From contig NZ_JACBXB010000001.1 in assembly GCF_013870575.1 (NCBI RefSeq), positions 1 to 64,000 of the forward strand: a DNA stretch of 64,000 nt. The letters run 5' to 3'. The DNA is from Pseudonocardia pini (GTDB taxonomy: Bacteria > Actinomycetota > Actinomycetes > Mycobacteriales > Pseudonocardiaceae). A program made the translations under genes and the position numbers. This document shows positions 29,085 through 44,697 of this stretch, piece after piece (the first letter of the stretch is position 1; every line of letters begins with the position of its first letter). Under the pieces are notes generated by a model, which worked only from the letters and a program-made list of their open reading frames with translations, was not told where the DNA came from and searched no databases.

Positions 29085-30254
29085 ATGACGACATCCGGAA
29101 CCGAAGCCCTCGTCAGCGGCGACAGCGCCGCAGACTTCCACGAGGTGCGTGAGGTGTTCGAGCGGGCGGTCGCCTCGGGAGCCGAGCTCGGGGCCTCCCT
29201 CACGGTGGACGTCGACGGGGAGACCGTGGTCGACCTGTGGGGCGGGTACCGGGACGAGGCGCGCACCGTCTCATGGACCGAGGACACGATCACCAACGTC
29301 TGGTCGCTGACCAAGACCGTCTCGAACCTGGCGGTCCTGGTGCTGGCGGACCGCGGGTTGCTCGACGTGCACGCCCCCGTCGCCGAGTACTGGCCGGAGT
29401 TCGCCGCGGCGGGCAAGGCGGACATCCGCGTCGCACAGGTCATGGGTCATACCTCCGGGCTGAGCGGCTGGGCGCAGCGGCCGTTCGCGACCGAGGACAT
29501 GTACGACCGCGAACGTTCCGTCGCCCTGCTCGCCGCCCAGGAACCCTGGTGGGAGCCGGGCACGGCGTCGGGCTACCACGGCAACACGCAGGGCCATCTG
29601 CTCGGCGAGATCGTCCGGCGCATCTCGGGCCGGTCGCTGCGCGAGTTCGTGGCGGAGGAGCTCGCCGCCCCGGTCGGCGCGGACTTCCAGATCGGTTGTC
29701 GCCCTACCGACCGCGGCCGCGTCGCGGACATCGTTCCGCCGCCGCCCCTGCCGTTCGACGTCTCGGCGATGGACCAGGACAGCCCCGCGTACAAGTCGAT
29801 GACCGGGCCCGCGTCGACCGCCGAGGACGCCAACACCGAGGCCTGGCGCGACGCCGAGATGGGCGCACTGAACGGTCACGGGAACGCCCGTGGCGCCTGT
29901 CGCCTCCTGCGCTCGATCACACTGGACGGCTGGTCCGGCGGCACTCGCCTACTCTCCCCCTCCACCATCGAGCTGATCTTCGAGGAGCAGGCGAACGGAG
30001 TGGACGTCGTCCTCGGGATGCCCCTGCGCTGGGGCACCGGGTACGCCCTCCCGCTGCCCGCGAGCGTGCCCGCGGTGCCCGAGGGCCGGATCTGTTTCTG
30101 GGGCGGCTGGGGCGGGTCCTTCGGTCTGATGGACCTCGACCGCCGCCTCACCTTCACCTACGTCATGAACCGGATGGGACCGGGTCTGATCGGCTCCGAC
30201 CGCAGCGACTCCTACCTCACCGCGACGCTGCGCGCGCTGCTCAGTCGCCGGTGA
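29085..30254 (+). CDS. Serine hydrolase of the beta-lactamase/EstB family
   Basis: 389-residue penicillin-binding-protein-fold esterase. Nucleophile motif SLTK (in [11 protein letters not shown], about residues 76-79), the Tyr motif GYHGNTQG and a C-terminal [14 protein letters not shown] in the place of the KTG box. Such proteins hydrolyse esters or lactones (EstB, lactone hydrolases) in the cytoplasm; no signal peptide is seen, arguing against a beta-lactamase. ATG at 29085 with AAGGAG is preferred over the GTG at 29058 that overlaps the SDR stop. Last gene of the operon; it ends convergently with and overlaps the next gene by 14 bp. Confidence 0.88.
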
Positions 30255-31017
30255 AGACCGGCGGTCTCCTCTGCTGGAAGGCGGCTACACCCTCCGCGAA
30301 GTCCGCGCTCGCGAGCAGCCGGGACTGGCCGACTCGTTCGCGTTCGAGCGTCTCGGCGAACCCGGCGATCGACGCGGCGTTGACAGCGGACTTCGTGTGC
30401 CCGAGTGCACCGGTGGGTGCCCCGGCCAACCGCACTGCGATCCGGTCGAGCTCCGCGGCGAAGTCCGCCGTCGGGACCACCGTCGACACGAGGCCGGCCT
30501 CGGCCGCCGCGTGCACGTCCAACCTCTCGGCCAGCAGCGCGAGCCGCAGGGCTCGGTGTCGCCCCAGCGAGGCTGCGACGAGCGCGGTCGCTCCGCCATC
30601 CGGCATCAGGCCGATCTTCGTGAACGCCAGCAGGTAGTACGCCGACTCGTCGGCCACGATCAGGTCGCAGGCGAGCGCGAGTGAGACACCGACCCCGACG
30701 GCGAGACCGTTGAGCCCGCAGACCACCGGTTGGGGAGCGGACGTGATCGCCGAGACGAGCCGGTTCGCGGCCTCGAGCACCGACGTGTCGACACCCGACC
30801 CAGCCGGGTCGGGTTCCCCGCCGATGTTCGCGCCGGCGCAGAAGGCCCGGCCTGCCCCGGTGAGCACGACGACCCGGGTCTCGGCGTCGTCGGCCGCCTG
30901 CTCGACGGCGTCGGCCGCGGCACGGAGCATGGGCTCGTCGACCGAGTTGAGCGTCTCCGGAGCGTCGAGCACCAGCCGCAGGACCCCGTCGTGGGGTCGC
31001 TCGGACCTCACGGCCAT
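30241..31017 (-). CDS. Enoyl-CoA hydratase/isomerase (crotonase family)
   Basis: 258-residue crotonase. Oxyanion-hole segments RAFCAGANIGGEPD and GLAVGVGVSLALACDLIVA. The stretch KIGLMPDGGATALV holds Asp rather than the two Glu of classical hydratases, so isomerase or another crotonase activity is possible. The ATG at 31017 follows the upstream stop by one base and has GGAG at a fitting distance; an ATG at 31035 would add six residues. Sixth and last gene of the operon led by the BVMO at 37318. A weak 7-bp hairpin (30246-30263) at its end may be the shared terminator with the EstB gene. Confidence 0.88.
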   Translation of the reverse strand: MAVRSERPHDGVLRLVLDAPETLNSVDEPMLRAAADAVEQAADDAETRVVVLTGAGRAFCAGANIGGEPDPAGSGVDTSVLEAANRLVSAITSAPQPVVCGLNGLAVGVGVSLALACDLIVADESAYYLLAFTKIGLMPDGGATALVAASLGRHRALRLALLAERLDVHAAAEAGLVSTVVPTADFAAELDRIAVRLAGAPTGALGHTKSAVNAASIAGFAETLERERVGQSRLLASADFAEGVAAFQQRRPPVFTGD

Positions 31018-31018
31018 C

Positions 31019-31786
31019 TCAGACGGCTCCGTCATGGAGAGCGAGGATCCCCTCGACCTGGGCGACCGCGGACTCACCGTGCCTGCCGAGCGCACCGAGC
31101 ACCAGGCTGAGGCGTTGACGGGCCAGCGCGAGCAACGGCGCCCGCCGCCCGCCGGACACGGCGGTGGCGGCGCCGACGGCCTCGTTCGCCGCGTTCAGGG
31201 CCCGCGTGAGATCGCCTTCGACGAGGCGGTTGTCGGCGAGGGTGATGAGCACCCACGCGAGCTCGGCCGGACAGTTCTCCCGACGCAGGTCGTGTGCCAG
31301 GTCGTCGATCTCGGGGACCGGCATGTCCGCGCAGCGTCGGACGGCGGCACGAACGAGTCGCTCGCCCACTGTCGCGGGCCCGTCGCCCCGGTGGCGGCGT
31401 GCTTCACCGAGATGCCACGCCGCTGCGCCCGGGCGGTGGGCGTGCAGCAGCGCCATGCCGAGGTTCGACGTCATCCGTGTCGCCTCCGGCCAGGGGCCGT
31501 CGGCGACGGTGGCCAGCGCCGCGACGAGCGGGGCGACGGCTCCACCCTCGAGGAACAACGTGTCGGCCAGGAGTAGGGCTGTCGCGGCGTCGACGGCCGG
31601 TTCGAGGACCTGGGGGACGGGTGTGCCGAGCTCGGCCCGGATCGCATCGGCGAAGGCCGTCGCGGCTCGGTCCGCGCGCCCGTCGGCCGCGAGCGAGCGA
31701 CCGAGCTCGTAGAGGGCGACGGCCGGGGTCCACGGAGTGCAGGCGGGCAGCGTGGCGAAGGCTCCGAGCAGCGGGTCGGTGGACAT
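31019..31786 (-). CDS. Hypothetical helical-repeat protein
   Basis: 255 residues, not recognised as a known enzyme. Ala/Leu-rich with regularly spaced helices (ALYELGRSLAADGRADRAATAF; NLGMALLHAHRPGAAAWHLGEARRH; ALNAANEAVGAATAV), which looks like degenerate TPR repeats. A scaffold or regulatory role would fit that fold. Two bases after the SDR stop and one base before the hydratase start, so clearly part of the six-gene operon. No signal peptide or membrane segment. Confidence 0.75.
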   Translation of the reverse strand: MSTDPLLGAFATLPACTPWTPAVALYELGRSLAADGRADRAATAFADAIRAELGTPVPQVLEPAVDAATALLLADTLFLEGGAVAPLVAALATVADGPWPEATRMTSNLGMALLHAHRPGAAAWHLGEARRHRGDGPATVGERLVRAAVRRCADMPVPEIDDLAHDLRRENCPAELAWVLITLADNRLVEGDLTRALNAANEAVGAATAVSGGRRAPLLALARQRLSLVLGALGRHGESAVAQVEGILALHDGAV

Positions 31787-31788
31787 CG

Positions 31789-32550
31789 TCAGAGCCTCGT
31801 CGCCGCGTCGAGGCGGACGACCTCGCCGTTGATCAGCTCGTTCTCCATGAACGACCGCACGAGCTGGGCGAAGTCGGCGGGCGTGCCCAGCCGCTTCGGG
31901 AAGACGTGCAGGTCCAGCAGCGCCTCGCGACGCTTGTCGTCGGCGCCCGCCAGCATCCCGGTGTCCATGATCCCCGGGCAGACGGTCATGACGCGGATTC
32001 CCCAGATCGCCAGGTCCCGAGCGAGGGGCAGGGTCAACGACACCAGACCGCCCTTCGATGCGGAGTAGGCGGCCTGCCCGACCTGGCCTTCGAGAGCGGC
32101 CGCCGAGGCCACGTTGACGATCAGGCCGCGCTCGCCGTGCTCGCCGGGCTCGTTGCGTGCCATCACGGCCACCGCTCGCCGCAGCACGTCGAAGGCACCG
32201 GCGAGGTTGATGTCGAGGGTCTTCTTGAAGACGTCGAGTGGGTGGAGGTCGCCCTTGCGCGACAGCACCCTCGCCGCCGGGCTGATGCCGGCAGCGTTCA
32301 CGCAGACGTCGATCCGGCCGAAGTGCTCGGCGACCGTCGCGACGGCCTTCTCGACGCCGGCCTCGTCGGAGACGTCGCACGGAACGAAGATCGCGTTCTC
32401 GCCCAGTGCGTCCGCGAACTCCTCCCCGGCCGACGACGGGAGGTCGAGGATCCCGACCCTGCCGCCGCGCTCGGTCAGCATGCGCGCGGTTCCGCCACCG
32501 AGCCCGGATGCTCCGCCGGTGACCAGTCCGACCGCGTTCTCGATCTGCAC
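31789..32550 (-). CDS. SDR, 3-hydroxyacyl-CoA dehydrogenase type II-like
   Basis: 253-residue SDR. Cofactor site TGGASGLGGGTARML, NAAG, catalytic Ser in VASAAA and YSASK. The CDVSDEAGVEKAV segment and VCPGIMDTGMLAG loop match the type II 3-hydroxyacyl-CoA dehydrogenase/17-beta-HSD10 group. GTG start with GAGGAGAGA upstream. It follows the degenerate FadD-like gene by 22 bp. Likely oxidises the 3-hydroxyacyl-CoA of this pathway. Confidence 0.91.
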   Translation of the reverse strand: MQIENAVGLVTGGASGLGGGTARMLTERGGRVGILDLPSSAGEEFADALGENAIFVPCDVSDEAGVEKAVATVAEHFGRIDVCVNAAGISPAARVLSRKGDLHPLDVFKKTLDINLAGAFDVLRRAVAVMARNEPGEHGERGLIVNVASAAALEGQVGQAAYSASKGGLVSLTLPLARDLAIWGIRVMTVCPGIMDTGMLAGADDKRREALLDLHVFPKRLGTPADFAQLVRSFMENELINGEVVRLDAATRL

Positions 32551-32572
32551 GTGCGTCTCTCCTCGGTAGGGG

Positions 32573-33988
32573 TCAGGGGTGTCTGCGGTGCACGCGGGGA
32601 TGCGGCACCGTGTTCGTTCGCCCTCTGGCGGGCCAGAGGTAGCCGGCATCGTCCGTTCCCGCCGGACGGCCGGTGTGCAGCCAGCCCTCCGGGCCGACCG
32701 CCTCGTTCGTGCGCACAGGATCTCCGCGATACCCGCGCATCACGTGCGGGCCGCGCACGAGGAGCTCGCCGTCGGCGGCGATGCGGGCCTCGGTCCCCGG
32801 GAGCGCGGTGCCGACGCTCCCGACCCGGATGGCACCGGGCGGCGGCAACGCCGCCAGCCCCGAGGTCTCGGGTGCGCCCCAGAACTCGGCCAGCGGGAGG
32901 CCGAGCGCGTGCAGGAGGTCGTGGGTCGTGGGTGCCGGGCCGGTCTCGGTGAGCAACAGGTCGCAGCGGTCCAGCCCGAGTTCCGCCCGGACCGCCGCGA
33001 GGTGCTGGACGTCGACCCGCTCGCAGGTGCGTTCCAGCTCGGCGCCGACCCACTCGCCGCGCTCGGCCAAGGCGAGTCTCCGGGTGACCGCCGCGACGGC
33101 CTCCGCCACCCCGGACAGCCGATCCCGCAGGTCTGAGGCGAGCCGGTCCCACGTCTGCGAGGCGCCCAACAGCCAGGTCGGCCGGGTCCGGGCGATCGCG
33201 GCGACGAGCTGCTCGGGATCACCGACGGTCGTGAGCGCGTATCCGGAGACCATCTGCAGGTAGTGCCCGAAGACTCGTGCCGCAGGTCGGCTGTGGGGCA
33301 GGTGCGACAGACACGTTCCCCGCTCGCGGAACGGAAACCACTGTCTGCAGGCATCCAGTACGTACATCAGGTTCGCGTGGGTGAGCTCGACCGCCCCTAC
33401 CCGGCCTGCCGGGCCGACCTCGTAGACCAGTGTCGCGACGTCGTCGGGATGCACCCTCTGCCACGCACCGAGGAAGTCGAACCCGGCTTGCCTGTGGTGG
33501 CGCAACTGGTCCAGCCCGACCGTGCCCGCCGTCGGTGGACCGCCGACGAGGACCACGTGGCGCACCGAAGGTGTCCAGGCGCTGCTCACCGTCTCGAGGA
33601 AGGCCGGCTCGCACACCACGACCTCGCACTCGGCGTGCTGCAGCACCGCTTCGACCGCGGTGACCGGGGCATCCGTGTCGAGCGAGAAGGGAATCGCGCC
33701 CAGGTGCAGTGCGGCCGCATCGACCAGGTGGAACTCCGGGCGGTTGGTGAGCATCAGGCCGACCGGATCGCCGCGCCCTATCCCTAATCCGTGGAGCCCG
33801 CCCGCGAGCTCGGCGACCGCGCGCGCGTACTCCGCGCGGGTGAGGCCGCGCCCACGGCCGTGAGCGCGAAGGGCGGGTGCCATCGGGTCAGCGGCGATCG
33901 TGCGCTGGAACGCGCCGCACAGAGTGCCCGCCGCCGCCTCCGGTACGGGGGCGGCGGTCCTGTGGTGGGCGTCGACGGTGACGGCCAT
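32573..33988 (-). CDS. Degenerate, C-terminally truncated FadD-like protein (probable pseudoenzyme)
   Basis: 471-residue open frame clearly homologous to the FadD at 42934 (shared GRGDPVGLMLTNRPEFHLVD and RGPHVMRGYR) but missing its chemistry. The P-loop YTSGTTGPPKG is replaced by YEVGPAGRVGA, the TSET/YGMSE motif by GAPETSG, and HTGD by HTGR. The protein stops at about the hinge (GYLWPARGRTN), so the RKKEL hinge and the whole C-terminal domain with the catalytic lysine are absent. No stop or frameshift interrupts the remaining 471 codons. It lies mid-operon, 16 bp after the ALDH. It could be decaying, or retained for binding or regulation. Confidence 0.85.
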   Translation of the reverse strand: MAVTVDAHHRTAAPVPEAAAGTLCGAFQRTIAADPMAPALRAHGRGRGLTRAEYARAVAELAGGLHGLGIGRGDPVGLMLTNRPEFHLVDAAALHLGAIPFSLDTDAPVTAVEAVLQHAECEVVVCEPAFLETVSSAWTPSVRHVVLVGGPPTAGTVGLDQLRHHRQAGFDFLGAWQRVHPDDVATLVYEVGPAGRVGAVELTHANLMYVLDACRQWFPFRERGTCLSHLPHSRPAARVFGHYLQMVSGYALTTVGDPEQLVAAIARTRPTWLLGASQTWDRLASDLRDRLSGVAEAVAAVTRRLALAERGEWVGAELERTCERVDVQHLAAVRAELGLDRCDLLLTETGPAPTTHDLLHALGLPLAEFWGAPETSGLAALPPPGAIRVGSVGTALPGTEARIAADGELLVRGPHVMRGYRGDPVRTNEAVGPEGWLHTGRPAGTDDAGYLWPARGRTNTVPHPRVHRRHP

Positions 33989-34004
33989 CCTCGGCCTCGC
34001 CCGG

Positions 34005-35384
34005 TCAGCCCATGACCCGACGCAGCAGCTTCTGTGCGCCGGGGCCGTAGGGCGGGTAGGCGAACGACGGGTCGATCGCGGTCGGCTTCTGCAGCACGGC
34101 ACGGAGGTGGCTGAAGGTGTCGAAACCGTGTTGCCCGTGATAGCTGCCGATACCGGACGCGCCGACTCCACCGAACGGCAGATCCGGCACCAGCAGCTGG
34201 TAGAGCAGGTGATTGACGCAGAAGGAACCGGAGTTCGTCAGGTCTTGGACCCGTTCGACGGTCGCGTCCGAGCTCGTGAACAGGTAGAGCGCGAGCGGGT
34301 GCGGCCGCGCCACGACGAACCGGACCGCGGACGCCAGGTCCGGCACGGCGATGACCGGCAGGACCGGCCCGAAGATCTCCTCCTGCATCAGCGGGGAGTC
34401 CGGGTCCGGGTCGGTGACGACGGCCGGGGCGAACCTGCGCGTCGCCCGCTCACGGGCCCCGCCGGTGACCTCGCCGCCGTGCCCGGACAGCAACCCGTCC
34501 AGCCGGTCGAAGTGCGCTTCGGACACGATGCGAGTCGGCTCGGCCTGGCCGGCGAGCTCGATGTGGTGCAGCAGCCGTTCGACGAAGGCCGGACGGACGG
34601 CGTCCTCGACCAGGACGTAGTCGGGCGCGATACAGGCCTGGCCTGCGTTCACGGACTTCGCCCAGGCGATCCGCCTGGCGGCCACGTCCAGGTCGGCGTC
34701 CCGCGCGACGATGACCGGGCTCTTGCCACCGAGCTCCAGCGTTGCGGGCGTGAGGTCCTTCGCGCAGGCTTCGAGCACGATGCGCCCCACGCGGTCGGAA
34801 CCGGTGAAGAAGACGTGATCGAACCTCTCGGCGAGGAGCGACGTGCTGACCGCCGCATCGCCGGTGACCACCGCGACGGCGGCAGGGTCGACGTAGCGCG
34901 GCAGCAGGTCCGCGAGGAGTGCAGCCGTCGCCGGCGCGAGCTCGGACGGCTTGAGGACGACGGTGTTCCCCGCCGCGAGCGCGCTGACCGCGGGCTGGAG
35001 CGTGAGCAGGATCGGGAAGTTCCAGGCCCCGATGACGAGCACGACGCCCTTGGGGGTCGGGACGACGCGCGCCTTCCCGGGCTGCTGGCCGGCGGGAAGC
35101 CGTACCTTCCGCGGAGCGGCCCAGCTCGTCAGCTCGGCCAGGGTGTGGGTGATCTCCGCGGTGACCGGGGCGATGTCGCCCATGAACGTGCCCATGGCGT
35201 TGCGCCCGAGGTCGGCCTCGAGCGCCGCCGCGATGTCGCTCTCCCGCTCGGTCAGCAGCCTGTGCAGGCCTTCGAGTTGGTCACGGCGCCAGGTCAGCGA
35301 GCGGGTCCGACCGGCCTCGAAGGTGGCACGCAGCCGGGTGACGGTGGCACCGACCACGCTGTGTCCGTTCACGACGGCAGTCAC
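34005..35384 (-). CDS. Aldehyde dehydrogenase (ALDH3-like)
   Basis: 459-residue NAD(P)-dependent enzyme oxidising an aldehyde to an acid. Cofactor-loop FFTGSDRVGR, catalytic Glu in LELGGKSP and the nucleophilic Cys in GQACIAPDY are present. The length, the absence of an N-terminal extension and the C-terminal PFGGVGASGIGSYHG fit the class 3/coniferyl-aldehyde group. GTG start overlaps the BVMO stop (GTGA). A BVMO ester, once hydrolysed, gives an alcohol that could be oxidised via aldehyde to acid; this enzyme would do the second oxidation (inference). Confidence 0.92.
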   Translation of the reverse strand: MTAVVNGHSVVGATVTRLRATFEAGRTRSLTWRRDQLEGLHRLLTERESDIAAALEADLGRNAMGTFMGDIAPVTAEITHTLAELTSWAAPRKVRLPAGQQPGKARVVPTPKGVVLVIGAWNFPILLTLQPAVSALAAGNTVVLKPSELAPATAALLADLLPRYVDPAAVAVVTGDAAVSTSLLAERFDHVFFTGSDRVGRIVLEACAKDLTPATLELGGKSPVIVARDADLDVAARRIAWAKSVNAGQACIAPDYVLVEDAVRPAFVERLLHHIELAGQAEPTRIVSEAHFDRLDGLLSGHGGEVTGGARERATRRFAPAVVTDPDPDSPLMQEEIFGPVLPVIAVPDLASAVRFVVARPHPLALYLFTSSDATVERVQDLTNSGSFCVNHLLYQLLVPDLPFGGVGASGIGSYHGQHGFDTFSHLRAVLQKPTAIDPSFAYPPYGPGAQKLLRRVMG

Positions 35385-37318
35385 GCGGTCACCTCCGCCC
35401 GCTCGTCGACGGCCCGCAGGTGGAAGTCCGCCAGCACCGGTTCATGGGTCCTCCTCCAGTACTCGATGTACTGCCACGGGCTGTTGGTGACGATGCGGCC
35501 CTTGCTGTTGCGGTAGTAGGTGTCCATCCCGCGGTGGTTCCAGATCGTGCGGTCGAGCGCCTCCCCGAGCTCCGCGTCGTACCGGTCGAACGCCTCCTGC
35601 CGCACCTCGACGGAGGCCAGGCGTTCGTCGACGAGGGTGGAGAGCAGGGCCGTCACGTGCTGGACCTGGATCTCGGTGCCCGCGATGACGGTGCCGCCGT
35701 GCCCGGTGTTGGTGTTGGGCCCGTACAGGCAGAAGAAGTTGGGGAAGCCGGGCACCGAGATGCCCAGGTGGGCGCGCCCGTCGTCAGAGCCCCAGAGCTC
35801 GTGCAGGGCACGACCGTCGCGCCCACGGATGTCGAGGGTCTCCAACACCTTGACGGCGTTGAAGCCGGTGGCGAGCACGACGACGTCCGCCTCGTGCTCG
35901 ACGCCGTCGGCCGTACGGACGCCCTTCGGTGTGACCTCACTGATTCCGTCGGTCACCAGCTCGACGTTGTCCTTGAGCAGCGTGCGGTACCAGCCGTGGT
36001 CGACGAGCAGCCGCTTGCCGTAGGGCGGATAGGTCGGGAGGCTCTTCTCCAGCAGGTCCGGGCGGTCCTTCAACGATGCCTGGACGAAGCCCGTCAGCAA
36101 CCTGCGCAGACCGTCGTTACCCCGGTTGATCGCGCGGTCCGGGTGCGCGAAGTCGGGATCGATCTGCAGCAGGCCGTGCAGCTTGTCACCCATCCGCCAG
36201 AAGAGCCGGAGCCGGTACCAGCCCTGGTACCAGGGCACGTGCCGGTTGAGGAAGTGGACGGCCTCGGGCACCTCGCGAGGCTGCAGCGGGTGCGGCATGG
36301 CCCACTGCGGCGAACGCTGGAACACGCGCACCTCCGCCGCGACCTTCGACGCCGCAGGGACCAGTTGCATGGCGCTGGCGCCGGTCCCGATGACGGCGAC
36401 GCGCTGACCGGTCAGGTCGAGGTCGGCGTCCCAGCGCGCGGTGTGCAGGCAGGGCCCCTCGAAGGAGTCGAGTCCGGCGATCGCGGGGATGCTGGGCACG
36501 TTCAACAGGCCGACCGCGCTGACCAGCGCGGTCGAGCGGATCTCCTCGCCGGTCGAGAGCGTGGTGACCCACTCGGCCGCGTCGTCGTCCCAGGTCGCAC
36601 CCGTGACCTCGGTCCCGAACCTGATCTTCGAGCGGACACCGTGCTCGTCGGCCAGGTCACGCCAGTACCGGGCCAGTTCGCCTCGGCGGGCGAAGTAGCG
36701 CGACCACTGCGGGTTCGGCGCGAAGGACAGCGAGTAAAGGTGGCTGGGCGTGTCGACCCCGCAGCCGGGGTAGGTGTTGTCGTTCCAGGTACCGCCGACG
36801 TCGTGGCCCTTCTCGAGCACGACGTAGGGAATACCCGCCTCCGCCAGCCGGACGGCCAGACACAGACCTGAAGCGCCGGCCCCGACGATGACCACCGACA
36901 CCTCACGGTCGGGATCCGGCCGCGAGGGGACCGACGCCCGCGGGTAGGCGCCGAGCTCTTCTCCCAGCAGTCGCCCGTAGTCTTCGGGCAGTCGATCACC
37001 CACGGTAGCGGAGAGCAGGCGGACCAAACGCTCGGGCGACGGCGTCGGCGCCGGGGTGAGCTCGCCGTCACGCCAGGCACGCAGGGTGTCGAACGACGCG
37101 GCGAGCACAGCTGCACGGGTCTCGTCATCGAACCCCGCAGAGTCGTGATCACCCAGGTCAGGAGGTGGAGTCGGCTGCCACGGCGGGGAGACCCACCGAT
37201 CCTCCCCGGTGAGGTGCGCGAGTGCCGCGAGCAGAGAGGGCAGGTTCGCCGACTCGAGTGCGTCGCGCAGGTCTTCGTCTCTGAAGTCCGCCGACACCGG
37301 CGAAGGAAGCGACTGCAT
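35381..37318 (-). CDS. Baeyer-Villiger monooxygenase with N-terminal extension (HAPMO-like)
   Basis: 645-residue FAD/NADPH monooxygenase. An N-terminal domain of about 145 residues (with LTGEDRWVS, as in the 10756 paralogue) precedes GAGASG, GGTWNDNTYPGCGVD, the BVMO fingerprint FEGPCLHTARWDAD and the second Rossmann motif GTGASAM. All fingerprint residues are kept. The ATG at 37318 lies exactly six bases after a TATGGT -10 box and has no ribosome-binding site, so a leaderless mRNA is likely. It heads a six-gene operon (BVMO, ALDH, degenerate FadD, SDR, hypothetical, crotonase) and carries a copy of the block's operator-like motif in its promoter. Confidence 0.93.
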   Translation of the reverse strand: MQSLPSPVSADFRDEDLRDALESANLPSLLAALAHLTGEDRWVSPPWQPTPPPDLGDHDSAGFDDETRAAVLAASFDTLRAWRDGELTPAPTPSPERLVRLLSATVGDRLPEDYGRLLGEELGAYPRASVPSRPDPDREVSVVIVGAGASGLCLAVRLAEAGIPYVVLEKGHDVGGTWNDNTYPGCGVDTPSHLYSLSFAPNPQWSRYFARRGELARYWRDLADEHGVRSKIRFGTEVTGATWDDDAAEWVTTLSTGEEIRSTALVSAVGLLNVPSIPAIAGLDSFEGPCLHTARWDADLDLTGQRVAVIGTGASAMQLVPAASKVAAEVRVFQRSPQWAMPHPLQPREVPEAVHFLNRHVPWYQGWYRLRLFWRMGDKLHGLLQIDPDFAHPDRAINRGNDGLRRLLTGFVQASLKDRPDLLEKSLPTYPPYGKRLLVDHGWYRTLLKDNVELVTDGISEVTPKGVRTADGVEHEADVVVLATGFNAVKVLETLDIRGRDGRALHELWGSDDGRAHLGISVPGFPNFFCLYGPNTNTGHGGTVIAGTEIQVQHVTALLSTLVDERLASVEVRQEAFDRYDAELGEALDRTIWNHRGMDTYYRNSKGRIVTNSPWQYIEYWRRTHEPVLADFHLRAVDERAEVTA

Positions 37319-37324
37319 GGCGTG

Positions 37325-37354
37325 ACCATACAGTGTGTTCAGACGGAGCGTCAA
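37325..37354 (-). promoter_or_regulatory. Leaderless promoter with operator-like motif (site A)
   Basis: Minus strand TTGACG (37354-37349), 18-bp spacer, TATGGT (37330-37325), six bases, ATG. The spacer and -10 contain TCTGAACACACTGTATGG (37343-37326), one of four similar sites in the block. Bound regulator would block RNA polymerase; the TetR gene ends one base upstream. Confidence 0.75.
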
Positions 37355-38671
37355 TCAGCCTGTCCGCGACACCCACGGGGCGTCGAGGACGGCGCCGAGC
37401 AGCTCACCCAGCACGTCCGCGACCTGATCGAGGTCCTCGAGATGCGGCTCTCCCGCAAGGCTTCCCGCGATGCTGCGCTCGATCGTCCACACCAGACTCG
37501 CCGCCAAGGGCGCGACCGTCGGCCCCGTCACCCCCGTCTCCCGGCGATCGGCCTCGATCTGCGCTGCCAGCGCTTCGGCGCACCGGACCTGTCCGGCGAG
37601 GTAGGGCTCGCGGAGCTCGGGGCGGCGGGGCCACTCGTGCAAGGCGTTGCGCATCATCGCCGGACTCGTCCAGCTCCCGACCCAGTCCCTCAACGCGGTG
37701 CGGATGGCACCACGGTCCGCGCGGTGGTTCTCCACGGCGGCCACGAAGACTTCGGCCTGCGCCTGGGACACCCGCCGGAACAAGGCGGCGAAGGCGTCGT
37801 CCTTGCTGCTGAAGTAGGCGTAGAACGTGGCTCGCGAGACGGTGCCGTCGGCGATGATGCGCTCGACACTGAGATCCTCGAGCGACACCTCGTCCAGCAA
37901 CCGCTCGACGCGCTGCAGGATCTGCTCGGCCGTGGGGTTCGCGGCGTCCCGGTTCCCGGTCGACCCGCCCGGGACCGGCGGCAGCGCTGCGGTGGGGCTC
38001 ACCTCCGAGCCGTCGACGTCGAGCGGCGCGACCGATCGGAGCACGCCGTAGATCGCGGCGAAGGTGAGTTCGGTGAATGCCTCGAACCTCGCTCCACCCG
38101 AGACGAGTGCCGGGTCGAATCCGCGTGCTCCGACGTGGAAGGTGCGCTCGACACCGCAGACCAGCACGGCCGCGAGCGTCTCGGCGGCCGGCCCCGAGGG
38201 GGCCCGCCCTCCGGCTCGCTCGTGCTCGATCTGCTCCGAGACGGCTCCGATGAAGCGCTCACGCATGCCGAGCCAGGCGGCGGTGACCTGCGGGACCGAG
38301 AAGATGTTCTCGATCGCCGCGCAGCTGACCGCGCCGCGTTCGGCCCACATGCCCACGGTCTCGCGAAGGCTCGCGTCCAACGAGCGGGCTCGATCCTTAC
38401 CCGGCTGAGCCTGCCACGGCGACTCCGCGACCTCGTAGGTCTCGTCCAGCAGCCGTGCGAGCAGGGCCGCTAACACGTCGGCCTTCGACGCGAAGTAGTG
38501 GTAGAAGTTCGCCCGCGACACGCCGGCCCGTTTGATGATCTTCGCGACGGTGATGTCCTGCAGGGAGAGCTCGCCCAGCAGCCCTTCCGTCGCCGTGAAG
38601 ACGGCCTGTTCCGACGCGGAGCGACCGTTGTGCGCTCTGGGTCGCTGCCGCGTCACCGGGTTCACGCTCAC
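37355..38671 (-). CDS. Double-domain TetR-family regulator, likely controller of the 30-48 kb block
   Basis: 438 residues with two TetR modules in tandem: helix-turn-helix one at about residues 40-65 (ITVAKIIKRAGVSRANFYHYF) and two at about 250-275 (LSVERIIADGTVSRATFYAYF). Both recognition helices are intact. The GTG at 38671 is chosen since a TACGCT -10 sits six bases upstream (leaderless, as for two other promoters of the block); an ATG at 38689 would add six residues. Its own promoter carries site D of the shared motif, implying autoregulation. Same architecture as 18416 but only distantly similar. Confidence 0.9.
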   Translation of the reverse strand: MSVNPVTRQRPRAHNGRSASEQAVFTATEGLLGELSLQDITVAKIIKRAGVSRANFYHYFASKADVLAALLARLLDETYEVAESPWQAQPGKDRARSLDASLRETVGMWAERGAVSCAAIENIFSVPQVTAAWLGMRERFIGAVSEQIEHERAGGRAPSGPAAETLAAVLVCGVERTFHVGARGFDPALVSGGARFEAFTELTFAAIYGVLRSVAPLDVDGSEVSPTAALPPVPGGSTGNRDAANPTAEQILQRVERLLDEVSLEDLSVERIIADGTVSRATFYAYFSSKDDAFAALFRRVSQAQAEVFVAAVENHRADRGAIRTALRDWVGSWTSPAMMRNALHEWPRRPELREPYLAGQVRCAEALAAQIEADRRETGVTGPTVAPLAASLVWTIERSIAGSLAGEPHLEDLDQVADVLGELLGAVLDAPWVSRTG

Positions 38672-38677
38672 CCGGGA

Positions 38678-38708
38678 AGCGTATCCCATGTCTGAACAGT
38701 GTGACTGG
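38678..38708 (-). promoter_or_regulatory. TetR gene promoter with operator-like motif (site D)
   Basis: Minus strand weak -35 GTCACA (38705-38700), 16-bp spacer, TACGCT (38683-38678), six bases, GTG. On the plus strand TCTGAACAGTGTGACTGG (38691-38708) overlaps spacer and -35. A further look-alike, CCGAACACTCGGTG, lies at 38716-38729. Confidence 0.6.
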
Positions 38709-38753
38709 ACACGCGCCGAACACTCGGTGCGATCGCGTGGACACAGCACGGAG

Positions 38754-39557
38754 TCAGGCGGACACAGCCTTCTGCAGGACGACGTCGAACTCGTCCGGGC
38801 ACTCGAACATCGGGTAGTGGCCGCACTCCAGCTCCACCAGCACGCCCTCGGTACGCTCGTGCACCCATCGCGCGCCCTCGACCGGCGAGAACGGGTCCTT
38901 GAGCCCCGCGATCTGGGTGAGCGGCACGGCCAGTCCGTCGAGAGCGTCGACCTGCTCGGACCGCAGCAGAGTGGTCATGCACTCGTTCGCGGCCCAGCTG
39001 GGAGTCTGCAACGAGATCGCGAGCAACCAGTCGACGAGATGGGGCGCGGGAGCCGAACCGAACGTGTCGATCAACGACTGCCTGCGGAAGCCGACCCGAT
39101 CGCCGTGCTCTCCGCGGTGCATGGCCGACTCCACGACACCGGGTGGCGGGCCGAACGAGAAGCCGCTCTGCCGCGCGCCGGCGACTCCCGCCGACCCGAC
39201 CAGGACGAGGCGTCCGACGAGATCGGGGAAGTCCGCGGCGAGGCGCAGGGCCGTCATCCCGCCGAGCGACCAGCCGACGACCGCCGCGGGCTCATGGGTC
39301 CGCGCACGCAGCACGGCCGCGGCATCGGCGGCGAGACGATCGATCCCGTAGCCGCGGAAGGGGGCGTCAGACCGACCGTGGCCGCGGAGGTCCATCGCCA
39401 GGACGTGGTGTCCGGCGTCGGCGAGAACGCGGATCTGCCGGTCCCAGGCCTCGAGGCTCAGGGTCCAACCGTGGATGAGCAGAACCGGATCTCCGTCGCC
39501 GACCTCACGCACGGCGACACAGACCCCCGGCTCGACCTCCACGCGGCGCAGCGTCAT
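38754..39557 (-). CDS. Alpha/beta hydrolase
   Basis: 267-residue hydrolase of the classical alpha/beta fold (DhaA/BphD/3-oxoadipate lactonase type). HGWTLS near the start provides the oxyanion hole, GWSLGG the nucleophile Ser, KDPFSP the acid and the final His lies in GHYPMFECPDEF. The ATG at 39557 has GGGGG upstream; a GTG one codon earlier is possible. Nine bases after the nitroreductase stop, so co-transcribed with it. Could open a lactone or C-C bond in the pathway controlled by the nearby TetR (inference). Confidence 0.9.
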   Translation of the reverse strand: MTLRRVEVEPGVCVAVREVGDGDPVLLIHGWTLSLEAWDRQIRVLADAGHHVLAMDLRGHGRSDAPFRGYGIDRLAADAAAVLRARTHEPAAVVGWSLGGMTALRLAADFPDLVGRLVLVGSAGVAGARQSGFSFGPPPGVVESAMHRGEHGDRVGFRRQSLIDTFGSAPAPHLVDWLLAISLQTPSWAANECMTTLLRSEQVDALDGLAVPLTQIAGLKDPFSPVEGARWVHERTEGVLVELECGHYPMFECPDEFDVVLQKAVSA

Positions 39558-39566
39558 CACATCCCC

Positions 39567-40268
39567 CTAGTCGTCGATGATGGTGGCGAGATCCGCGACC
39601 GACTGGCGGTCGGTGCGGTACGAGTTGGTGGGGTGCTCGTCGTCGGGGTACCCGAACGAGATGCCGACCAGCACGCGACGCTCCTCGGAGAGCCCGAGGA
39701 ACTCACGGATGAACGGGGCCTGGCTCGCGAGAGCGGCCTGCGGCACGGTTCCGACCCCCCGGGCGTAGGCGGCCAGCAGGAAGCTCTGCACGAACAACCC
39801 ACAGTCGACGGCGCCGTAGAGCCCCAACTCGGCGGCGGTGGTCACGATCGCGACGTGCGGAGCGCCGAAGCAGTCGAAGTTGCGGAGCATCTCCCGCCCG
39901 GACGCCGCACGGTCGCCCTTGCCGATACCCACCGCGTCGTAGAGCTGCCAGCCGGAGGCGCGTCGACGCTCGGCGTGGACGCCGGTGTACTCGCCGGGGA
40001 AGGGGAAGTCCGATTCCTCGCGCGGACCAGCCGCGACCCGGGCCGCCAGACCCTCCCGGAAGCGGCCGATCGCGGCCCCCGAGATCACGTGCAGGTGCCA
40101 CGGCTGCGTGTTGCACCACGACGGGGCGTGCCGGGCGGCCCGCAGGATCTCCTCGACGACGGCCGGGGCCACCGGCTCCTCCCGGAAACCACGGCAGCTC
40201 CAGCGCTCGCGGAGCAGCCGGTCCAGCACGTCGCTGTCGACTCGGTCACCGACGGTCGGAACGCTCAC
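39567..40268 (-). CDS. Nitroreductase-family FMN oxidoreductase
   Basis: 233-residue flavoprotein. RWSCRGFREEPV and RHAPSWCNTQPWHLHV carry the FMN-binding Arg/Ser and Asn-Gln-Pro motif, and GVGTVPQAAL plus ISFGYPDDEHPTNSYR the C-terminal phosphate-binding part. Such enzymes reduce nitro groups, quinones or enones with NAD(P)H. GTG start with GAGGAGGA. Divergent from the oxygenase at 40407 and preceding the alpha/beta hydrolase. In a catabolic setting an ene- or quinone reductase function is more likely than nitroaromatic reduction (inference). Confidence 0.9.
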   Translation of the reverse strand: MSVPTVGDRVDSDVLDRLLRERWSCRGFREEPVAPAVVEEILRAARHAPSWCNTQPWHLHVISGAAIGRFREGLAARVAAGPREESDFPFPGEYTGVHAERRRASGWQLYDAVGIGKGDRAASGREMLRNFDCFGAPHVAIVTTAAELGLYGAVDCGLFVQSFLLAAYARGVGTVPQAALASQAPFIREFLGLSEERRVLVGISFGYPDDEHPTNSYRTDRQSVADLATIIDD

Positions 40269-40303
40269 TGGTCCTCCTCGTTGTACGTACGGCGGACTCG
40301 ATG

Positions 40304-40347
40304 AACATACACGGCATGTAGACACAGTGTTCAATAGGCCGTAGGGT
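40304..40347. promoter_or_regulatory. Divergent promoters with operator-like motif (site B)
   Basis: Plus strand TAGACA (40319-40324), exactly 17 bp, TAGGGT (40342-40347) for the oxygenase gene. Minus strand TTGAAC (40334-40329), 19 bp, TATGTT (40309-40304) for the nitroreductase; that spacer is longer than ideal. GACACAGTGTTCAATA (40321-40336; complement TATTGAACACTGTGTC) lies in the plus spacer and over the minus -35. A half-site, GATGAACATAC, starts at 40300. Confidence 0.65.
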
Positions 40348-41738: not shown

Positions 41739-41740
41739 GG

Positions 41741-41770
41741 TATACAGAGTGTTCAGTCGCTCTGTATAGT
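41741..41770 (+). promoter_or_regulatory. Leaderless promoter with 28-bp inverted repeat and operator-like motif (site C)
   Basis: TATACAGAG (41741-41749), 10 bp, CTCTGTATA (41760-41768) is a perfect inverted repeat. Its right arm contains the -10 box TATAGT (41765-41770), six bases before ATG 41777. The complement of 41741-41757, ACTGAACACTCTGTATA, is site C of the shared motif. No good -35 is seen, which may mean activation or weak basal expression. Confidence 0.72.
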
Positions 41771-41776
41771 CAGCCC

Positions 41777-42937
41777 ATGAGCATCGACGCCGCCGCTCCC
41801 CGGCTCGGCCTCTTCGAGGCCGAGCACGAGGACTTCCGTCAGAGTTTCCGCTCCTTCCTCGAGGCGGAGGTGGTCCCCGGCTACCAGGACTGGGAACGGG
41901 AGGGCATCGTCCCCCGCGAGGTCTTCGCCGCCGCGGGCAAGTCCGGCTTCCTCGGCATGGCCCTGCCCGAGGAACACGGCGGCGGCGGTGTGGACGACTT
42001 CAGGTTCAACGCCGTCATCGCCGAGGAGATCGCCGACACCGGCTGCGTCTCGTTCGGCATCAACCTGCACAACGACATCTGCCTGCCCTACTTCCAGGGC
42101 CTCGCCGACGCCGAGCAGCAGGCCCGCTGGATGCCGGGGCTGGCCTCCGGCCAGCTCATCGCCGCGATCGCCATGACCGAGCCCGGTACCGGCTCGGACC
42201 TCGCAGGCATCCGCACCACCGCCCGCCGCGACGGGGACCACTTCGTCCTCGACGGCAGCAAGACCTTCATCTCCAACGGGATGAACGCCGACGTGGTCAT
42301 CGTCGCCGCCCGGACCTCGGAGGACCGCCACACCGGGCTCTCGCTCTTCGTCGTCGAGCGCGACACCCCCGGCTTCACCCGAGGTCGCAACCTCGACAAG
42401 ATCGGCATGCACGCCCAGGACACCGCCGAGCTGTTCTTCGACTCCGCGCGCGTTCCGGCGGCCAACCTGCTCGGCACCGAGGGCGGCGGGTTCAAGGCGC
42501 TCGTGGGCAACCTCGCCCAGGAACGCATGACGATCGCCGTGGCCGGGGTCGCGTCCGCGGCGGCCGCACTGCGTCTGGCGCTGACCTACACGAAGGAACG
42601 CACCGCGTTCGGCAAGCCGGTCAGCAGCTACCAGAACACCCGGTTCGAGCTTGCGGACGTGCACACGAAGGTCGAGATGGCCCGCGCATTCGTGGACTCG
42701 TGCCTGCACGAGCTCGTCGCCGGGACGCTCACCCCCGAGCGTGCGGCGATGGCCAAGCTCGCCGCGAGCGAGCTGCAGTTCTCGGCCGTCGACCGCTGCC
42801 TGCAGCTGTTCGGCGGCTACGGCTACATGACCGAGTACCCCATCGGCCGGGCGTTCGTCGACGCACGGATCGGTCGGATCTACGGAGGGACGTCGGAGAT
42901 CATGCGAGAGATCATCGGAAGGTCGTTGGGCGTATGA
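41777..42937 (+). CDS. Acyl-CoA dehydrogenase (FadE family)
   Basis: 386-residue FAD enzyme introducing the 2,3-double bond into acyl-CoA. AMTEPGTGSDLAGI, KTFISNGMNAD, MHAQDTAELFFDSARVP and the C-terminal IYGGTSEIMREIIGRSLGV are diagnostic. Like the paralogue at 13796 it has YGGT instead of YEGT, so the catalytic base must lie elsewhere. ATG lies six bases after a TATAGT -10 box without a ribosome-binding site (leaderless). Overlaps the FadD start by four bases (ATGA). Leads the operon FadE-FadD-hydrolase-fusion protein. Confidence 0.93.
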   Translation: MSIDAAAPRLGLFEAEHEDFRQSFRSFLEAEVVPGYQDWEREGIVPREVFAAAGKSGFLGMALPEEHGGGGVDDFRFNAVIAEEIADTGCVSFGINLHNDICLPYFQGLADAEQQARWMPGLASGQLIAAIAMTEPGTGSDLAGIRTTARRDGDHFVLDGSKTFISNGMNADVVIVAARTSEDRHTGLSLFVVERDTPGFTRGRNLDKIGMHAQDTAELFFDSARVPAANLLGTEGGGFKALVGNLAQERMTIAVAGVASAAAALRLALTYTKERTAFGKPVSSYQNTRFELADVHTKVEMARAFVDSCLHELVAGTLTPERAAMAKLAASELQFSAVDRCLQLFGGYGYMTEYPIGRAFVDARIGRIYGGTSEIMREIIGRSLGV

Positions 42938-44697
42938 GCACCGTGGAACAGCTCGAGAAGCGCGCCCCGGGCATCGGCGCAGGCACCCTGTGTGCCGCCT
43001 TCCAGCAGACCGTCGCCGCGGACCCGAGCGCCCCAGCGCTCCAGGCGCACGGTGGCGACGCGGTGCTGACCAGGGCGCAGTACGCGGCGGAGGTCGAGCG
43101 CATCGCCGGTGGGCTGGCCGCCCTGGGCGTCGGCCGGGGGGACCCGGTCGGCCTCATGCTGACCAACCGCCCCGAGTTCCACCTCGTGGACACGGCCGCC
43201 CTGCACCTGGGTGCGGTCCCGTTCTCCATCTACAACACCTCGTCGCCCGATCAGATCGAGTACCTGCTCGGGCACGCCGAGAACCGGGTCCTGGTCTGCG
43301 AACCACAGTTCGTCGAGCGGGTCGCGGCCGCCTCGACGCCGCACCTGGAGCACGTCGTGGTCGTGGGCGAGGACTCGTTCGCCGACCTCGCCCCCTCCCC
43401 GGGCTTCGATCTCGCGTCCGCGTGGCGGGCCGTGGAGCCGAGCGACGTCGCGACGTTGATCTACACCTCGGGTACCACCGGGCCACCGAAGGGCGTGGAG
43501 CTGACCCACGCCAACGTGATGTTCGTGCTCGACACCTGCGAGCGCCGGTTCCCGTTCGCCACCGACGGCGCCTGCCTGTCGTACCTGCCGTCGGCGCACA
43601 TGGCGGACCGCATCTTCTCGCACTACCTGCACATGGCGACCGGCTGGCCACTCACCACCGTCGCCGACGCATCGCAGGTCTTCGCCGCGGTCGCCGCTGT
43701 CCGCCCCACCTGGTTCCTCGGGGTGCCGCGGATCTGGGAGAAGCTCCGCCAGGCGCTGCTGCGTGGTTTCGGGGCCCTGCCGGAGGACCAGCGCTCGGCC
43801 GTCGAGCAGGCGTTGGAGGCCGCGCTGGCCGAGGTCCGCCGTCGTCAGGACGGGGCGGGCACGCCCGGACACCTGGAGACGCCGCCACCCGCGCTGGCCG
43901 CCGTGGCGGGCAGGCTCGGGTTCGACCGGATCGCGCTGATGATGACCGGCGCGGCCCCGATCGCACCCGCGGTGCACGAGTTCTTCCTGGCGCTCGGCCT
44001 GCCGCTGATGGAGGGGTTCGGCATGTCCGAGACCGGCGCCCTGGGCATGACCAACCTGCTCGACGAGATCCGCGTCGGCCGGATCGGGCTGCCCATGCCC
44101 GGCACCGAGGCACGGATCGCGGACGACGGCGAGCTGCTGCTGCGTGGCCCGCACGTGATGCGCGGGTACCGCAAGGACGTGGAGAAGACGGCCGAGGCCA
44201 TCGACGCCGAGGGCTGGCTGCACACCGGGGACGTCGCCACCGTCGACGAGGCGGGCTGGTACCGCATCGTCGACCGCAAGAAGGAGCTGATCATCAACGC
44301 GGGCGGCAAGAACATGTCGCCCGTGAACATCGAGAGCGCGCTGAAGGATGCCTCGCCGTTGATCGGGCAGGCGTGCTGCATCGGCGACCTCCGGCCGTAC
44401 AACGTGGCGCTGCTCGTGCTCGACCCCGAGGCGGCGGCGGCGTGGGCCGCGGCGAACGGGCTCCAGGACGCCTCGCCGGGCGCGGTGGCCGTCGAGCCTC
44501 GCGTGCGGGAGGCGATCGCCACCGCCGTCGAGGCGGCCAACACCCGACTGTCGCGGATCGAGCAGGTCAAGCGCTGGGAGCTGCTGGCCACCGAGTGGCT
44601 TCCGGACGGCGACGAGCTCACCCCCACGATGAAGATGCGCCGCAAGGGGATCGCCGACAAGTACGCCGCCACCATCGACGCCCTCTACGAACGATGA
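42934..44697 (+). CDS. Long-chain acyl-CoA synthetase (FadD15-type)
   Basis: 587-residue ligase with every catalytic motif: YTSGTTGPPKGVELTHAN (about residues 178-195), FGMSETGAL, HTGD, VDRKKELIINAGGKNMSP and the lysine segment LTPTMKMRRK. Close to the partial FadD at the window start and to the degenerate copy at 32573, which share NRPEFH and LTHAN blocks. ATGA overlap with the dehydrogenase and again with the hydrolase that follows. Supplies CoA esters to the adjacent FadE. Confidence 0.94.
   Translation: MSTVEQLEKRAPGIGAGTLCAAFQQTVAADPSAPALQAHGGDAVLTRAQYAAEVERIAGGLAALGVGRGDPVGLMLTNRPEFHLVDTAALHLGAVPFSIYNTSSPDQIEYLLGHAENRVLVCEPQFVERVAAASTPHLEHVVVVGEDSFADLAPSPGFDLASAWRAVEPSDVATLIYTSGTTGPPKGVELTHANVMFVLDTCERRFPFATDGACLSYLPSAHMADRIFSHYLHMATGWPLTTVADASQVFAAVAAVRPTWFLGVPRIWEKLRQALLRGFGALPEDQRSAVEQALEAALAEVRRRQDGAGTPGHLETPPPALAAVAGRLGFDRIALMMTGAAPIAPAVHEFFLALGLPLMEGFGMSETGALGMTNLLDEIRVGRIGLPMPGTEARIADDGELLLRGPHVMRGYRKDVEKTAEAIDAEGWLHTGDVATVDEAGWYRIVDRKKELIINAGGKNMSPVNIESALKDASPLIGQACCIGDLRPYNVALLVLDPEAAAAWAAANGLQDASPGAVAVEPRVREAIATAVEAANTRLSRIEQVKRWELLATEWLPDGDELTPTMKMRRKGIADKYAATIDALYER

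Follow-up and report, generated by a model that had tools for sequence, protein, structure and literature searches.

P0001, a FadD11-like protein of Pseudonocardia pini predicted to be catalytically dead, is probably a pseudoenzyme: we favour its descent from a duplicated FadD11-like synthetase and its retention for a role that depends on the fold, most likely as a partner or acyl-binding regulator of P0002, an intact paralogue. The combination of a conserved fold and lost catalysis, as read from the gene and its homologues, suggests that the protein is retained for a non-catalytic job and is not rotting at random. Both genes lie within a window of 64,000 nt, by which we mean the whole stretch of DNA analysed, on contig NZ_JACBXB010000001.1 of a draft genome of 1246 contigs.

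An open FadD frame with altered catalytic motifs

The gene for P0001 occupies positions 32573..33988 on the minus strand and encodes 471 amino acids followed by a stop. The sequence-only reading had described 471 codons without a stop, which is true of the minus strand, read from 33988 to 32573; on the plus strand the frame is interrupted over the same positions. Residues 27-420 match the Pfam AMP-binding family PF00501 with 144 bits (gathering score 29.9), which places the protein in that family, and its best NCBIfam match, like that of P0002, is FadD11 (NF038343) with 337 bits, short of a 950-bit cut-off that P0002, with 640 bits, does not reach either. P0002 itself (42934..44697, plus strand) is, by alignments, Pfam and NCBIfam, a full-length FadD with intact motifs, and the proposed kinship of the two is borne out by 50.5-53% identity.

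Alignment with homologous FadDs locates the changes, all on the minus strand. At the P-loop (A3, 33386..33424), P0001 has YEVGPAGRVGAVE instead of YTSGTTGPPKGVE, with intact flanks: YTSGTTGPPKG has become YEVGPAGRVGA, and the TSGTTGxPKG pattern is replaced by EVGPAGRVGA. SYLPSAHMADR reads SHLPHSRPAAR at 33275..33307, where SAH has turned into HSR; GVPRIWE reads GASQTWD at 33146..33166, with two invariant residues gone (a segment left out of the motif set in the loss test below); TGAAPIAP reads TETGPAP at 32930..32950, GAAP giving way to ETGP; and in A7 (32666..32677) HTGD has become HTGR, without the aspartate of a catalytic FadD. The A5 region (32864..32881) has changed from FGMSET to WGAPET and keeps the glutamate that a catalytic FadD has there (E366 in P0002 numbering). 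Homology to FadDs ends at codon 451 in the profile alignment, whichever frame is considered, and is undetectable in any frame of the final 20 codons (32576..32635). As the C-terminal domain of P0002, PF23562, is likewise absent from the Pfam matches of P0001, the latter lacks the hinge and catalytic lysine that this domain brings to a catalytic FadD. The roles and A-numbers given to the motifs here follow common usage for the ANL superfamily. For A5 and A7, the assignments are also backed by passages of PMC9342972. The earlier claim that every catalytic motif had been lost is thus too sweeping, since the A5 glutamate survives, as do two of the P-loop's three glycines; it is right for the P-loop as a whole, for SAH and GAAP, for the aspartate of HTGD and for the C-terminal domain.

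The frame of P0001 has no internal stop, and frame-aware profile alignment revealed, at realistic penalties, no frameshift. Compensated frameshifts were considered as a source of the scrambled P-loop and rejected: a frameshift-permitting profile alignment used none at penalties of -12 and -8; relaxing the penalty to -6 brought up a -1/+1 pair in the P-loop and another near the start, worth about 2 bits in total, while for the control, P0002, a pair was proposed too, at both -8 and -6. A frameshifted remnant of the C-terminal domain was sought by the frame-aware profile alignment, and none was found. That P0001 is an artefact of assembly or sequencing seems to us barely credible; a draft assembly in 1246 contigs speaks for it, yet the divergence is spread along the whole of P0001 with silent sites saturated, the flanking genes have open frames, and the alignment calls for no frameshift under realistic penalties.

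The AlphaFold model of P0001 (11 sequences) has a mean pLDDT of 82.6 and a pTM of 0.86, and among the stretches listed pLDDT falls below 50 at residues 1-18 and 456-471 only. Its nearest solved fold is the N-terminal domain of FadD5 of Mycobacterium tuberculosis (8r2r; TM 0.72 by query length), and the likeness is to that domain alone, whereas 8r2r was deposited as part of a ligase with the P-loop YTSGTTGRPKG. The model shows that P0001 is compatible with a FadD N-terminal fold; folding itself is not implied, and AlphaFold tends to give any homologue a fold.

Losses concentrate in the catalytic motifs

The 30 FadDs of the alignment (all aligned rows minus P0001, with columns more than 20% gapped dropped) agree without exception at 65 sites, and of these P0001 has lost 11 of the 19 in catalytic motifs as against 4 of the 46 elsewhere. 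The excess has a Fisher p of 6e-5, a generous value, because the motif list was drawn up after the alignment had been inspected and because motif sites neighbour each other. A circular-shift control, which preserves this clustering, gave a single arrangement as extreme among 65 shifts, namely the unshifted one itself. At sites at least 90% conserved, the losses are 16/26 in motifs and 16/102 elsewhere, with 2 of 128 shifts as extreme, the unshifted arrangement counted.

Twelve more divergent FadDs, not among the 30 that define invariance, served as controls, with gaps scored as losses and one of them, L003, without its N-terminus. They have lost 0-3 of the 19 motif sites and 1-19 of the 46 others, and in all 12 the motif share of losses lies below the non-motif share, the opposite of P0001, though the contrast is slight in L066 (0 and 1) and L030 (3 and 10). 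P0001 therefore shows the pattern by which a pseudoenzyme is recognised, with catalytic residues gone and the other conserved residues and the predicted fold retained.

Selection, drift and the case for recent decay

The chief rival to the pseudoenzyme reading is recent decay: P0001 would be a redundant duplicate of a FadD, now in decay after a recent loss of function, its frame still open owing to the short time elapsed and the high GC. We hold this to be unlikely, though it has a good deal in its favour, namely an intact paralogue (P0002) in the same window, the deletion of the C-terminal domain and the lack of an orthologue in the genomes searched. It also draws on the weakness of an argument made in the sequence-only reading, that the absence of stops over 1.4 kb speaks against decay. 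GC-rich DNA often decays stop-free in simulation, and so this argument carries little weight: at 73% GC, neutral decay left no stop in 51% of runs at 0.1 substitutions per codon, in 30% at 0.2 and in a fraction of 0.155 at 0.3. The absence of frameshifts, for its part, is telling only if an indel rate is assumed.

Rates of change bear more directly on the question. Four-fold silent sites differ between P0001 and P0002 at 80 of 153 positions (0.52), which, as in other FadD pairs (0.44-0.58), amounts to saturation, and in the best-kept segment of P0001, positions 1 and 2 are unchanged in 25 of 30 codons while position 3 differs in 16 of the 30. In a codon model of 11 sequences and 447 codons, repeated on three topologies, omega = 1 on the P0001 branch was worse by 42-45 log units. 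Taken together, the saturated silent sites and the rejection of omega = 1 mean that drift over the whole branch fails to explain P0001. A separate omega for P0001 gains less than 1 log unit in the branch model, which with saturated silent sites yields no reliable omega and cannot tell when catalysis was lost. A two-phase model, fitted on two topologies, does best with a late neutral phase of 0.002-0.09 substitutions per codon, those above about 0.15-0.3 being disfavoured; change at the neutral rate is thus rejected over the whole branch and allowed as a short late phase, and it is within this neutral tail that recent decay would have to fit.

It is the distribution of the losses that weighs against it. 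Decay of 0.2 substitutions per codon alters about 14% of residues anywhere in the protein, yet the motif losses stand at 11/19, for which the binomial probability at a rate of 0.14 is about 1e-5 (a figure that assumes independent sites and so overstates the case), and the non-motif invariants lost are only 4/46. A phase short enough to retain 42 of those 46 sites is not expected to erase 11 of 19 motif sites, which counts against recent decay. The earlier suggestion that selection may keep P0001 consequently draws its strength from the retained non-motif conserved sites and from the rejection of omega = 1 over the branch, and loses the no-stop argument on which it had leaned.

Gene conversion from P0002 was considered as the origin of the conserved stretches of P0001 and rejected, silent sites being saturated in most of the windows compared. 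One 30-codon window differs at 1 of 11 four-fold sites and another at 4 of 13, and in these two low-divergence windows local conversion from P0002 may have taken place.

Operon setting and possible shared control

P0001 lies, as had been proposed, inside a tightly spaced operon on the minus strand: an aldehyde dehydrogenase gene (ALDH; PF00171, 34005..35384) ends 16 bp upstream of it, and a short-chain dehydrogenase gene (SDR; PF00106, 31789..32550) follows 22 bp downstream. The gene order is nitroreductase, alpha/beta hydrolase, double TetR, BVMO, ALDH, P0001, SDR, a 254-aa protein and enoyl-CoA hydratase, with gaps of -32 to 36 bp save for 103 bp ahead of the double TetR, a gene for which we chose the start ourselves. 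BVMO stands for a Baeyer-Villiger-type flavin monooxygenase (35381..37318, minus strand), a type that is our own reading of matches to Pfam FMO-like and related families, and the 254-aa protein (31019-31783, minus strand) has no Pfam or NCBIfam family match at E 0.001. Across the divergent promoter region follow an mpaB/Lcp-type oxygenase, an acyl-CoA dehydrogenase (ACAD) and P0002. P0001 has a GC3 of 0.875, in agreement with its own operon (0.863-0.921 for the minus-strand genes at 30241-40334); of seven plus-strand neighbours tested, six range from 0.918 to 0.969 and one has 0.891, which hints that the two sets differ in origin or expression.

This setting lends some colour to the idea that P0001 was neofunctionalised, performing ATP-free chemistry or ligand binding in the same pathway independently of P0002; acyl-CoA or ester binding or hydrolysis might be examples. 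The gene is flanked by the ALDH and SDR of a catabolic operon, and the protein retains the N-terminal domain and the A5 glutamate. We nonetheless find the idea improbable, since no new motif was identified in P0001 and the adenylate-binding residues are gone with no obvious replacement.

A search with P0002 through 301 genomes of another family gave matches at 1e-180 in 13, and the surroundings of all 13 loci were read over about 20 kb each or up to the contig end. Every one has a single full-length FadD of the P0001/P0002 kind and no second, dead partner. The FadD lies directly downstream of the BVMO gene in 11 of them, L108 and L109 being without BVMO, and these 11 BVMO-FadD stretches share a nitroreductase/mpaB pair in ten cases and a double TetR in seven. 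P0001, situated behind BVMO and ALDH, may itself occupy a near-ancestral FadD position. In two cluster-bearing genera, P0001 has matches at 1e-100 or better in 14 of 59 genomes (g61) and in 7 of 150 (g20), and all 21 matching frames are at least 615 aa long. In each of the 11 stretches (L088, L089 and L110-L118), acyl-CoA dehydrogenase genes come as a tandem pair, one 67-73% and the other 53-57% identical to that of the window, where one such gene (41777-42937) precedes P0002. A further FadD relative, L080 (G618:C3:7238-8593), has an in-frame TAG and is possibly decaying.

The window has a 17-mer, TGTAGACANAGTGTTCA (40317..40333, plus strand, 0 mismatches), in the region between its divergent operons, where it may be an operator or promoter element. 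Ten of the 11 BVMO-FadD loci have it too, at 0-1 mismatches, the eleventh, L088, ending at a contig edge before mpaB, and the copies in L089 and L110-L118 fall in the nitroR/mpaB intergenic regions; it was not found in L108, L109 or four further FadD loci (L090-L093). A weaker second copy, with 2 mismatches, lies directly before the ACAD-FadD pair (41739..41755, plus strand), and directly before P0001 there is no copy at up to 3 mismatches. The assertion that the same motif controls both FadDs accordingly gains some support from the copies at 40317 and 41739, and none from the DNA immediately ahead of P0001. Because the 17-mer sits between the operons and a copy precedes the ACAD-FadD pair, the genes for P0001 and P0002 are plausibly under one regulator.

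The double TetR of the window (37355-38650, minus strand) is a single open frame carrying two TetR N-terminal domains. Relatives alignable near full length occur in the seven stretches mentioned, and the frame therefore looks like a conserved two-domain regulator; in L089, L111 and L112 its relative directly follows the FadD.

Distribution and ancestry

No orthologue of P0001 was found among relatives (60 genomes, its own counted; the sets overlap), in the genus (62 genomes including its own, E up to 1e-65), in the order (397 genomes, 1e-85), in the family (390, 1e-85), in the class (374, 1e-100) or in three genera of another, cluster-bearing family (28 genomes at 1e-100; 59 and 150 at 1e-80). 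Four candidates per genome were scored in the order, family and class, and ten in the 150-genome genus, and a weaker second copy could escape such a search. A contig scan with P0001 gave five weak relatives, and among plasmids the best of the matches listed is at 40%. P0001 is thus known from one genome. Absence in close relatives had been named beforehand as grounds for abandoning a functional reading; it is literally what we observe, and it refutes little, because the 61 other genomes of the genus gave no complete FadD of this clade.

Two partial FadDs, both outside the tree, come from one genome of the same genus, G028. One, cut by a contig end, spans 109 residues with 57% identity to P0002 and 51% to P0001, and its YNTSS segment is intact while the P-loop falls beyond the cut. 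No other cluster genes were found on its contig, and no FadD of the P0001/P0002 kind in the fetched stretch of a BVMO relative (47%) in G028.

In the tree, P0001 groups with the BVMO-linked FadDs and P0002 (clade support 100/99), on a branch of 1.22 as against 0.39 for P0002, and the tree program warns of its long branch and odd composition. The first tree set it beside P0002 (92/67), and three alternative groupings inside the clade are not rejected (AU p 0.15, 0.09 and 0.07). The best matches of P0001 are full-length FadDs, those of G914 (451 bits) and G852 (445 bits), both at 51%, scoring above P0002 (425 bits, 53%). With these higher scores and an ambiguous sister grouping, P0001 may have been copied from a FadD other than P0002.

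Known systems and implications

As a pseudoenzyme, P0001 would go back to the duplication of an acyl-CoA synthetase, FadD11-like and encoded in a catabolic BVMO/oxygenase cluster. The copy has lost the residues that handle ATP and the adenylate, together with its C-terminal domain; it is predicted to be incapable of acyl adenylation and would have been maintained for a role dependent on the folded domain, presumably under common control with the active P0002, either as its non-catalytic partner or as a regulator that binds acyl groups. A partnership between the two is possible on the strength of their co-localisation, the shared motif and precedents elsewhere. In a more specific version, P0001 and P0002 would together make up a heteromeric acyl-CoA synthetase in which P0001, the product of a duplication in one lineage, serves as the dedicated non-catalytic subunit; we put this forward very tentatively and think it rather doubtful.

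Whatever its role, P0001 warns that inactive proteins can hide behind open-frame FadD annotations. A search for dead or truncated bacterial FadDs and inactive adenylation domains returned no dead bacterial FadD in open-access titles among the matches listed. A stand-alone dead FadD with an active paralogue would offer a simple two-gene system, one that could show the effects of a pseudoenzyme on substrate choice or on the control of CoA ligation.

With FadD11-like ligases (NF038343) of the ANL superfamily, P0001 shares the N-terminal AMP-binding domain, and it differs from them in that A3, A7 and the C-terminal domain are gone. Another parallel is DIP2, whose second FAAL-like domain is degenerate in A5 and A7, according to passages of PMC9342972, yet both domains are required, and both are said there to retain the ancestral ANL motifs overall. 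On that account, DIP2 and P0001 are alike in keeping a degenerate adenylating domain beside an active one; the DIP2 domains, however, are fused and opisthokont-wide, whereas P0001 is a separate gene, found in one genome and without a C-terminal domain. Within actinobacterial pathways, the portion of PMC11321319 that deals with ChsH1-ChsH2 and HadAB/HadBC describes an inert homologue supporting an active subunit, the very arrangement that we propose for P0001 and P0002. Those proteins, as described there, are MaoC-fold hydratases in described complexes, whereas P0001 is ligase-like and known from its gene. If our proposal is true, the inert-partner plan known for actinobacterial (steroid) hydratases would extend to an activating ligase.
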